This document shows, one piece after another, positions 5,804 through 19,006 of a DNA stretch of 40,586 nucleotides. Position numbers and translations under genes: made by a program. The number at the start of each line of letters is the position of its first letter. Position 1 is the first letter of the stretch. This DNA is from a virus. The notes beneath the pieces are model-generated. The model was given only the letters and a program-made list of their open reading frames with translations, ran no database searches and was not told where the DNA came from. The DNA lies in the IMG/VR virus record IMGVR_UViG_3300048586_000111, positions 1-40,586 of that record. The stretch is one strand, 5' to 3'.

Positions 5804-6102
5804 CTGCCCGCTGAGGGCCATTTGCACAATCCGGCCTCCCCATGCCGCCCTCTCCCCTATCGCGCGCCAGTGGCCAGCCCTGCCAGCCCTTGCCCCGCCT
5901 CCCCTGCTGCCCTCCCCCGTCACCTGCCCCGGCTGGCCAGCCCTGCCCCCTGCCCTCCCCGCCCCGGCTGCCCCCTGCTGGCCAGTATTAAGGCCCCTGC
6001 CATGCCGCTTGACAGTATCGGCAGCCCCCGCTATCCTGCCCCCGCCAGCCCTCCCCCGCTTCCTCCCCCGGTGGCTAATGGAGGGCTGGCACCTGCTGAT
6101 GA
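5804..6102. other. C-rich, apparently non-coding stretch
   Basis: About 300 bases dominated by CCCTGCC and CCAGCCC runs with few purine tracts, and several copies of CTGGCCAG (near 5724, 5933 and 5978). Open frames cross it, but they translate to Pro/Ala-rich low-complexity sequence without a ribosome binding site. I see no gene. Strand asymmetry (C far above G) is marked. Confidence 0.5.
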
Positions 6103-8718: not shown

Positions 8719-8916
8719 ATGACATGGCTAGTATTAATACTCCTACTAGTAATCTGTATTAAGAGCGCCCGTGCCCTCGAAGATTTTTTGCCGAACCCTC
8801 TTGACCCCCTACGGGGAGAGGGCTATCAAGTGGTTTCGTGCGAGGGGGTTAGTCCTTTCACCCTCGCGCTAGGTAGGCAAGCGAAGGCAGGCGCGACCCT
8901 ACTAGGTCGGGAATAG
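8719..8916 (+). CDS. Possible small membrane or exported protein
   Basis: A 65-residue frame starting MTWLVLILLLVICIKSARA, a plausible membrane anchor or signal sequence, followed by a less structured tail. The ribosome binding site is weak (TTAGGG) and the gene stands alone between two strong hairpins. The tail has no family resemblance that I can see. A non-coding structured RNA covering 8719-8965 is a real alternative. Confidence 0.4.
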   Translation: MTWLVLILLLVICIKSARALEDFLPNPLDPLRGEGYQVVSCEGVSPFTLALGRQAKAGATLLGRE

Positions 8917-12162: not shown

Positions 12163-12195
12163 TACCCCGGTATGGTGCGGCTACATACCGGGGTA
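12163..12195 (+). terminator. Perfect 12-bp stem hairpin between small genes
   Basis: TACCCCGGTATG and CATACCGGGGTA are exact complements around a 9-base loop. AAACCT follows rather than a T tract, so it may be a 3'-end stabiliser or attenuator placed just ahead of the ribosome binding site of the acidic protein gene. Confidence 0.6.
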
Positions 12196-12225
12196 AACCT
12201 AGCCGCTAAAGGAAGGAGTATTAGT

Positions 12226-12393
12226 ATGGCTGAAAACGAAACGCCGGAAACCGACGTGACCGAGGATACCGCTGTGGCCGAGGCCGTGGCGGCTGCTGAG
12301 GAAGCGGAAGGCCCGGATGACGAAGCCGAGGACGAAGCCGAGGACGAAGCCGAGGACGGCGACGACGAGGCCGAGGACGAGGACGACGAATAA
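12226..12393 (+). CDS. Extremely acidic small protein
   Basis: A 55-residue product. The C-terminal half is almost only D, E and A (repeats of EDEA), and the N-terminus is also acidic (MAENETPETDVTEDTA). GGAAGGAG followed by TATTAGT ATG gives a strong ribosome binding site. The charge resembles DNA-mimic anti-restriction or nucleoid-targeting phage proteins, but it is disordered-looking and lacks a mimic fold. It could equally be a flexible binding partner of a basic protein. The repetitive codons (GACGAAGCCGAG) suggest expansion by slippage. Confidence 0.7.
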   Translation: MAENETPETDVTEDTAVAEAVAAAEEAEGPDDEAEDEAEDEAEDGDDEAEDEDDE

Positions 12394-17391: not shown

Positions 17392-18177
17392 ATGAAAACG
17401 CTCAACATTCTCGCCGCCGCCCTTGCCTCGGTGAGTGCTTTTGCCGCACCCGTCGCCGCACAGTCGGCAGCCGTGGACGCTACCACTCAATCGCAATCAA
17501 AATCCGTTTCCGGCAGTAGCAGCCAGTCCGGTAGCGCCAGCGACCAGACGCAGGGACAGGTGCAGGGCCAAACGGCCATCGGCACTGTCGGCCAGCAGGC
17601 TACCAATCAGCAGGGGGTGGCGGTTTCCAATACCTTCAACTCCACCAACCGTAAGTTTACGGAAGTGAACACCAATGCAGCCGTGCCGCTGGCGGCTTCT
17701 TCTTCCTTTAGCTCTGATTTCTGCGGTGCTACTGCTTCTGGCGGCGTTTCAGCCGCCCCCATCGGTATCAGCATCGGCGGCGCAAAGCCCGTGTATGACA
17801 AGAACTGTCAAGGGCTGCGCCGTGCTGAGAAATTCGGTATGGCAGCCGCCAACGCGCACAACATGGGCCAGCATGAACTTGCCGGTCGCCTCATGTCGCT
17901 GATGATTTGGAGCATCTGCACCAGCGATACTGAGACGTATTCGGAAGGTCGCGCCGACAAGTCCAATACGCCGTCCGCTACCGAACAAGCCTGTAGCTCC
18001 ATGCTGTTGCTCGGTAACGCTACCCTGCCGACGCCTACCGCTGGCCAGCCCGCTCCCGCGCCCGCCTCTCAGGCTGCTATCAGCCGGAACGGCAGGCCGA
18101 CGCCGGAAGCTGTGTCGCGCGCTACCGATGACAAGCGGCAGCAGGTGGCGTCCCTTAATCCCGCTGGCATCCCCTAG
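17392..18177 (+). CDS. Exported protein with Sec signal peptide, function unknown
   Basis: A 261-residue product with a clear signal peptide (MKTLNILAAALASVSAFAA; likely cleavage after APVAAQ). The mature N-terminal part is Ser/Gln/Gly-rich (about residues 28-85). A conserved-looking domain follows, with FCGATASGG, then IGISIGGAKPVYDKNC, then LRRAEKFGMAAANAHNMG, and four or more cysteines that could form disulfides in the periplasm. The C-terminus is Pro/Ala-rich. I recall similar exported proteins in other phages and prophages of Gram-negative bacteria, but not a known function. It has its own promoter and lies between the polymerase and nuclease/helicase genes, like an inserted moron. Superinfection exclusion or envelope change is possible. 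Confidence 0.8.
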   Translation: MKTLNILAAALASVSAFAAPVAAQSAAVDATTQSQSKSVSGSSSQSGSASDQTQGQVQGQTAIGTVGQQATNQQGVAVSNTFNSTNRKFTEVNTNAAVPLAASSSFSSDFCGATASGGVSAAPIGISIGGAKPVYDKNCQGLRRAEKFGMAAANAHNMGQHELAGRLMSLMIWSICTSDTETYSEGRADKSNTPSATEQACSSMLLLGNATLPTPTAGQPAPAPASQAAISRNGRPTPEAVSRATDDKRQQVASLNPAGIP

Positions 18178-18178
18178 A

Positions 18179-18231
18179 CGCCAAGCCGGGTAGGGGCCGC
18201 TGCGTCTTGGCGCACAGGTAGCAGCGGCCCC
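18179..18231 (+). promoter_or_regulatory. Predicted H-type pseudoknot 1 in intergenic leader
   Basis: Stem 1 pairs CGCCAAG (18179-18185) with CTTGGCG (18206-18212). Stem 2 pairs GGGGCCGCTGC (18193-18203) with GCAGCGGCCCC (18221-18231). The stems interleave (A-B-A'-B') with loops of 7, 2 and 8 bases, a feasible H-type geometry. The two stems could instead be mutually exclusive, as in an attenuator. Confidence 0.6.
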
Positions 18232-18241
18232 GTAACCGATA

Positions 18242-18284
18242 CCTAGTGGTGCTAGGGACAGCCACTAGGCGAAACAGTGTCCCT
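18242..18284 (+). promoter_or_regulatory. Predicted H-type pseudoknot 2 just before the ribosome binding site
   Basis: Stem 1 pairs CCTAGTGG (18242-18249) with CCACTAGG (18262-18269). Stem 2 pairs AGGGACA (18254-18260) with TGTCCCT (18278-18284). Loops are 4, 1 and 8 bases, and the last loop is A-containing (CGAAACAG), a classical pseudoknot layout. It ends 7 bases before AGGAG (18292-18296) and 18 bases before the ATG at 18303, so it can affect translation of that gene. Confidence 0.6.
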
Positions 18285-18302
18285 TAATACAGGAGACAAG
18301 AC

Positions 18303-18695
18303 ATGAAGCATGTTCTGGTTCTGGCCCTCGGGCTTCTCTCGCTTGCCGTCGCCCCCATCGCCCATGCCGCTGACGCGGGCTTTGCCCTCGGCACCGGACA
18401 GGTCATTTCCGAAAGCGGCGCATCGGCGGCATCCAACGGCGGTTCGTTCTCGGCGCTCGCCGGTATCACCGCACAGGGCTCGCAGGCCGGTTCGTTCTCG
18501 ACCGGTGGCGCTGGCCTGTTCTTCAACAACAACAACACTCAGGCCCTCAGCGGCCAGACCTCGGGCTCGTCGCAGTCGGGCTTCTCGGCCTCGCTGGGTG
18601 TCGCTACCAGCGTCAACGGCAACGTGGCGCAGGGCGTCGGTCAGTCGGGCGCGCTCGGCAACCTGACCACGCTCTACGGCTTCATCGTTCCGTAA
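18303..18695 (+). CDS. Small exported Gly/Ser-rich protein
   Basis: A 130-residue product with signal peptide MKHVLVLALGLLSLAVAPIA-HA (cleavage near residue 22). The mature part is Gly/Ser/Asn/Gln-rich (GGSFSALAGITAQGSQAGSF; FFNNNNTQAL; GQTSGSSQSGFSA) without cysteines, so it looks like an amyloid-like or outer-membrane-associated low-complexity protein. AGGAG lies 6 bases before the ATG. Its leader contains two predicted pseudoknots, and a terminator follows at 18737. Function unknown. Together with the gene at 17392 it forms an exported-protein pair. Confidence 0.8.
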   Translation: MKHVLVLALGLLSLAVAPIAHAADAGFALGTGQVISESGASAASNGGSFSALAGITAQGSQAGSFSTGGAGLFFNNNNTQALSGQTSGSSQSGFSASLGVATSVNGNVAQGVGQSGALGNLTTLYGFIVP

Positions 18696-18736
18696 GCCGG
18701 CCCTTGCGCTGATAAGGCGCTTGTGCTACATCATGG

Positions 18737-18770
18737 GGGCCGGATACGGGAAGTCGTATCCGGCCCTCTT
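18737..18770 (+). terminator. Rho-independent terminator after the exported-protein pair
   Basis: GGGCCGGATAC and GTATCCGGCCC form a perfect 11-bp stem with an 8-base loop, followed by TCTTAAT. The tail is only moderately T-rich. It separates the exported-protein genes from the nuclease/helicase genes. Confidence 0.7.
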
Positions 18771-18796: not shown

Positions 18797-19006
18797 ATTA
18801 ATACTCCTGCTCAACCGGTCGCGCCGACCGCGCTACACCGCCATCTAACGCCTGCCAAGACGTTAGCCGTCACCTTTTCCAGCGAAAAGCACATGCGGAA
18901 CTACCGCTCCATGCTCTACAGCATCAACAAGCAGGGCAGCTTTCGCTACCGGACAATCCGTGATGAAACGCAATCCTACGGTATCATCATTTGGAGGATG
19001 AAATGA
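18797..19006 (+). CDS. Small basic protein with probable non-canonical ATT start
   Basis: The frame ends in MRNYRSMLYSINKQGSFRYR, then TIRDETQSYGIIIWRMK, and its stop forms an ATGA overlap with the next gene (19003-19006), strong evidence that it is translated. The only in-frame ATG (18893) gives 37 residues and has a weak ribosome binding site. The frame stays open and protein-like back to 18773, and an ATT at 18797 lies 6 bases after AGGGGA, which would give 69 residues starting with the peptide INTPAQPVAP. The basic strands (FRYRTIRDETQ..GIIIWR) suggest a small nucleic-acid-binding domain. The start remains unresolved. Confidence 0.6.
   Translation: MNTPAQPVAPTALHRHLTPAKTLAVTFSSEKHMRNYRSMLYSINKQGSFRYRTIRDETQSYGIIIWRMK

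Follow-up and report, generated by a model that had tools for sequence, protein, structure and literature searches.

Two consecutive H-type pseudoknots predicted between two exported-protein genes of a phage, with a possible role in translation initiation

Consecutive H-type knots within one RNA are found at the 3′ ends of plant viruses and in tmRNA, and the preQ1 and SAM-II riboswitches use H-type pseudoknots next to the ribosome binding site (RBS). To our knowledge, very few pseudoknots have been described in the mRNA leaders of phages. The operator of gene 32 in T4 and RB69 is a pseudoknot followed on its 3′ side by an unstructured UUAAA/RBS stretch (PMC535899), and ColIb-P9 repZ requires a pseudoknot upstream of the RBS for its translation (PMC8383071). 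In the Listeria phage PSA, +1 frameshifting occurs at proline codons that adjoin either a stimulatory pseudoknot or a stop (PMC5009743).

The locus considered here lies in a virus record of IMG/VR (IMGVR_UViG_3300048586_000111, positions 1–40,586); this whole stretch of 40,586 nt is referred to as the window. Two predicted H-type pseudoknots, PK1 and PK2, follow each other in the spacer between two of its genes, an arrangement of leader pseudoknots for which a phrase search of the open-access literature returned no description. A search of the window with all 4227 Rfam families likewise gave no match at the gathering threshold, xrRNA families included, and the matches at E ≤ 10 were chance ones far below threshold.

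The gene pair and its 125-nt spacer

The + strand of the window carries a replication module (DNA polymerase A, a Gp2.5-like single-stranded DNA-binding protein, an exonuclease, and a helicase) and the − strand a structural module (portal, major head, and tail fibre). The polymerase has 27 relatives in IMG/VR, and the nearest named phage by this protein is Rhodoferax phage P26218, at approximately 33%. In the window and its relatives, a variable insertion site separates the polymerase from a VRR-type nuclease; the exported-protein gene pair (Table 1) was absent at this site from all polymerase relatives inspected. Gene 1 gave no PHROG match and no Pfam match above the cut-off, the gene 2 product was without family match in either collection, and the AlphaFold models of the two proteins were uninformative (pLDDT 38 and 35). 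We read the pair as a moron-like accessory cassette. Ahead of gene 1, a sigma70 promoter (TTGACA..TAGGGT) was suspected by eye, but the promoter scan did not find it.

Two observations concern the far end of the cassette. After gene 2, the repeats CCGGCCC, GGGCCGG, and CCGGCCC at 18697–18768 can pair in two mutually exclusive ways, one of which gives the terminator-like hairpin, and an attenuator is possible at this position. The gene that follows the cassette (18797–19006) has an apparent ATT start (INTPAQPV...) behind a Shine-Dalgarno-like stretch, TCTAGGGGAC; its homologue in the relative L009 has an ATG start.

Table 1. Positions in the window of the gene pair, the strands of PK1 and PK2, and associated features
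Feature	Position	Strand	Description
Gene 1	17392-18177	+	261 aa, S/Q-rich, signal-peptide-like N terminus; predicted exported; UAG stop
PK1 stem 1, 5′ strand	18179-18185	+	CGCCAAG; starts 1 nt after the gene 1 UAG stop
PK1 stem 2, 5′ strand	18193-18203	+	GGGGCCGCTGC
PK1 stem 1, 3′ strand	18206-18212	+	CTTGGCG
PK1 stem 2, 3′ strand	18221-18231	+	GCAGCGGCCCC
PK2 stem 1, 5′ strand	18242-18249	+	CCTAGTGG
PK2 stem 2, 5′ strand	18254-18260	+	AGGGACA; resembles Shine-Dalgarno AGGAGACA
PK2 stem 1, 3′ strand	18262-18269	+	CCACTAGG
PK2 stem 2, 3′ strand	18278-18284	+	TGTCCCT; alternative partner is the Shine-Dalgarno (hairpin of −6.6 kcal/mol)
Shine-Dalgarno of gene 2	18291-18296	+	AGGAGA, read from sequence
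Gene 2	18303-18695	+	130 aa, S/G/Q-rich, signal-peptide-like N terminus; predicted exported; ATG start
Terminator-like hairpin	18735-18768	+	14 bp, CTCTTAAT tail, weak U tract; closes the cassette
PK3	12163-12206	+	H-type pairing, 12/7 bp, loops 2/0/4

An earlier note on this DNA had placed two independent A-B-A′-B′ pairings with perfect stems at 18179–18284, within the 125-nt spacer between two predicted exported-protein genes and with the second knot just before the RBS of gene 2; the coordinates, the stem lengths, and the setting were all borne out. PK1 spans 18179–18231, with stems of 7/11 bp and loops of 7/2/8 nt, and PK2 spans 18242–18284, with stems of 8/7 bp and loops of 4/1/8 nt. The loop lengths of both look compatible with H-type geometry. 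The 3′ end of PK2 lies 6 nt from the Shine-Dalgarno and 18 nt from the ATG of gene 2.

Departure from chance and recurrence in relatives

Perfect Watson-Crick H-type pairings in which both stems reach at least 7 bp number three in the 40.6-kb window, where 0.22 would be expected and the maximum in 100 shuffles was 2. The third of these, PK3, was absent from the earlier note and lies just ahead of the RBS that serves an acidic ORF of 55 aa (12227–12393). Energies were computed with a conservative Dirks-Pierce-like penalty and set against the best nested fold: PK1 is iso-energetic with it (−32.3 vs −33.0 kcal/mol), and PK2 (−19.5 vs −13.7 kcal/mol) and PK3 (−30.1 vs −22.2 kcal/mol) are both favoured over it. 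Nested folding of the leader alone is also strong (z = −4.66). When the leader was subjected to dinucleotide shuffling, 1 of 5000 sequences reached the stacking energy of PK2 alone. Since intergenic DNA can be expected to contain strong hairpins on other grounds, the count was also conditioned on the hairpins as given: among 42 with a stem of at least 9, loop-flank helices of at least 7 bp were expected 0.315 times and seen three times (Poisson P of about 0.004). The shuffles, the window count, and this conditional test together support the earlier contention that chance is unlikely to account for the interleaved stems. PK1, PK2, and PK3 are real, non-chance features of the sequence, on hairpin-conditional evidence that is moderate and not overwhelming.

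Among the collections searched, only two IMG/VR phages, L002 and L003, also carry the gene pair, and no homologues of the pair were found by blastn and tblastn in phages and plasmids or by genome contig scans. Both appear to be of a different phage type from the window, the polymerase relative in the 49.8-kb contig being only 31% identical, and their homologues share 51% (gene 1) and 47–50% (gene 2) amino acid identity with the window's pair. Their spacer, at 68 nt and without obvious sequence similarity to the window leader, contains a 12-bp hairpin with the loop UGGGGUC, of which GGGUC can pair with a GACCC tail; in L002, 18 nt separate the end of this loop-tail helix from the ATG. The pairing is suggestive only, because 109 of 5000 shuffles (approximately 2%) match it. 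The CC of GACCC is also part of a weak Shine-Dalgarno hairpin (−2.4). Of the 68 spacer positions, 2 distinguish L002 from L003 and neither falls within a helix, as against approximately 11% at fourfold sites; so few differences do not allow a test of constraint. The spacer of these phages seems, from its sequence, to keep the architecture in part, as one hairpin with a loop-tail helix, not tandem; the tandem arrangement was seen in the window only.

The generality of such helices was surveyed in 20 other loci, namely the polymerase relatives plus L002 and L003, where no enrichment was found (50 loop-flank helices of at least 6 bp vs 41.5 expected; 10 of at least 7 bp vs 8.2). The idea that related phages are generally enriched in loop-tail pseudoknots was accordingly rejected; when only long stems were considered, a weak excess was left, most of it due to the window itself. 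A hairpin ahead of the RBS does recur in relatives (L008 and L017), the knot being lineage-specific. Some single leaders nonetheless come close to the arrangement of the window: that of L017 combines a 15-bp hairpin and a 6-bp loop-tail helix, 22 nt ahead of an ATG. The conservation of PK3 in orthologous leaders was similarly rejected, as L008, the nearest relative to carry the PK3 gene, shows two plain hairpins at that place.

Two further pairings of this kind were noted. At 8727–8762 of the window, in the spacer before the primase-helicase gene, TTAATAC/GTATTAA repeats give a 7-bp hairpin and a 7-bp loop-tail helix. In Rhodoferax phage P26218, a 10-bp hairpin and a 6-bp loop-tail helix occupy positions 5870–5921, with the 3′ strand of the helix lying between the Shine-Dalgarno and the ATG of the DNA polymerase gene.

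As a separate observation, a motif centred on TTAA, whose flanks differ by lineage, is strongly enriched throughout the window, on both strands, and in the relatives L008–L024. The window contains 105 copies of [AC]TTAA[GT] vs 7 of [GT]TTAA[AC], and 41 of TTAATAC vs 2.6 expected. In L009, TTTAAAG occurs 69 times (both strands counted) vs 1.9 expected in 22 kb, and the same form is present in L017, L019, L022, and L023; ATTAAT is the form in L010, L011, and L015, and ATTAAA that in L008. Phage P26218 displayed no enrichment of the TTAA-centred motif. Because synonymous codon pairs follow the motif (CTT-AAT 19 vs CTT-AAC 2; CTC-AAT 1 vs CTC-AAC 7), it looks to be selected at the DNA level; a codon-pair effect is a possible alternative, most in-gene sites sharing one frame.

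Proposed role in gene 2 expression and rival readings

As possible roles, the earlier note had offered a translational switch, an exonuclease-resistant RNA, and an element sensing a small molecule or a protein. The structure of the leader is well supported, and from its layout we infer a role in the expression of gene 2: with a probability of roughly 0.4, the two consecutive pseudoknots may constitute an intercistronic mRNA element that sets gene 2 expression at translation initiation. PK2 would form before the Shine-Dalgarno is transcribed and, once formed, would prevent sequestration of the Shine-Dalgarno by its 3′ strand (UGUCCCU), UGUCCCU being able to pair either with AGGGACA in the knot or with AGGAGACA in the Shine-Dalgarno region, the two being mutually exclusive. 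Gene 2 would be ON with PK2 formed and OFF with PK2 disrupted. It is this alternative pairing of the PK2 3′ strand that suggests a repZ-like ON-switch, a step that is weakly supported. In favour of the proposed role in gene 2 expression count the non-chance pairings, the loop-tail pairing in the spacer of L002 and L003, and the distances from stem 2 to the ATG, which are alike in the PK2 of the window (18 nt), L002 (18 nt), and PK3 (20 nt). Several results count against it: the Shine-Dalgarno hairpin is barely unusual, since 247 of 5000 shuffles (5%) match it; when PK2 is masked, the model still pairs the Shine-Dalgarno, now with coding sequence; PK3 has no Shine-Dalgarno competitor comparable to that of PK2; the L002 pairing has its chance level of approximately 2% and a weak Shine-Dalgarno hairpin; and PK1 ties with a nested fold.

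PK1 may add a second element to this scheme. As the gene 1 stop is so near PK1, a terminating ribosome would cover the first strand of the knot, and ribosomes that finish translating gene 1 would unwind stem 1 of PK1 and could in this way couple the two genes. The full tandem regulator, in which PK1 senses ribosomes finishing gene 1 and PK2 holds the gene 2 Shine-Dalgarno open, is doubtful.

The main rival to a switch, and one that fits the data nearly as well, is an element of mRNA stability, whereby the knots block exonucleases or the passage of RNase E/J and lengthen the life of the gene 2 message with no switching; in a variant of the same proposal, protection falls on the gene 1 message at its 3′ end. 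A GC-rich structure of high stability, placed between two genes that share a transcript, would suit such a role, the homologous operon of L002 and L003 likewise has a long hairpin at that place, and a hairpin before the RBS recurs in L008 and L017 even without the knot. A simple hairpin would nevertheless suffice for protection, and the extra 7-bp helices would need another reason. We regard a stability role as possible, if tentative.

It is rather unlikely that the structures are ordinary strong hairpins whose extra loop-flank complementarity is fortuitous and functionless. The near-expected number of loop-flank helices across the 20 loci and the absence of PK3 from the closest relative with an orthologous gene would agree with this, but the three helices of at least 7 bp on 42 hairpins, two of them in one 125-nt spacer, and the 1 in 5000 frequency among shuffled leaders speak against it.

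That an RNA-binding protein of the phage or its host, for instance the Gp2.5-like single-stranded DNA-binding protein, binds the knots and represses translation in the manner of T4 gene 32 would be an improbable explanation by analogy. It draws on the T4/RB69 operator precedent (PMC535899), on the presence of a gene for such a protein in the window, and on the UUAAUAC that comes after PK2; the regulated gene is, however, not that of the binding protein, and there are two knots instead of one.

Recoding is more improbable still. Pseudoknots that stimulate recoding usually lie about 5–9 nt from the shift or stop codon. PK1 could be taken to promote UAG readthrough, which would add 22 aa to gene 1, or +1 frameshifting at its terminal CCC UAG, the pseudoknot that follows recalling the Listeria phage PSA precedent (PMC5009743). 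The proposal was rejected on spacing, because PK1 starts 1 nt past the stop, within the ribosome channel; the homologue of gene 1, moreover, ends in CGC TAA, without a slippery codon. Least credible is a small-molecule riboswitch, which has no specific support: the H-type pseudoknots of preQ1 and SAM-II next to the RBS offer a parallel, yet Rfam gave only chance microRNA and sRNA matches even at E ≤ 10, no conserved core is common to the window and L002/L003, and the gene concerned is exported and non-metabolic.

Comparison with described pseudoknots

Should the element be functional, it would illustrate by what means phage-borne pairs of accessory genes adjust the unequal expression of their members from a single transcript, and a tandem-pseudoknot regulator, if true, would be a cis-acting RNA of a new class, located in accessory gene cassettes. 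The tandem knots of plant-virus 3′ ends and tmRNA differ from those of the window in location, size, and role. The preQ1 and SAM-II riboswitches share with the leader an H-type topology near the RBS, but here there is neither an Rfam match nor a conserved core, and the Shine-Dalgarno lies outside the knot. The T4/RB69 gene 32 operator, too, is a pseudoknot in a phage leader, and it likewise precedes an unstructured RBS stretch that contains UUAA elements; the knots of the window have larger stems and are in tandem, and gene 2 encodes a predicted exported protein and not the single-stranded DNA-binding protein that would bind. As in ColIb-P9 repZ, the predicted PK2 lies directly upstream of the RBS, where it is proposed to be the translation-permitting state, and an upstream reading frame ends just before the knots. 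The window departs from repZ in having two knots, no known antisense RNA, and a full exported-protein gene in place of a short leader peptide. The knots described here are best regarded as a variation on leader pseudoknots, outside any named family.
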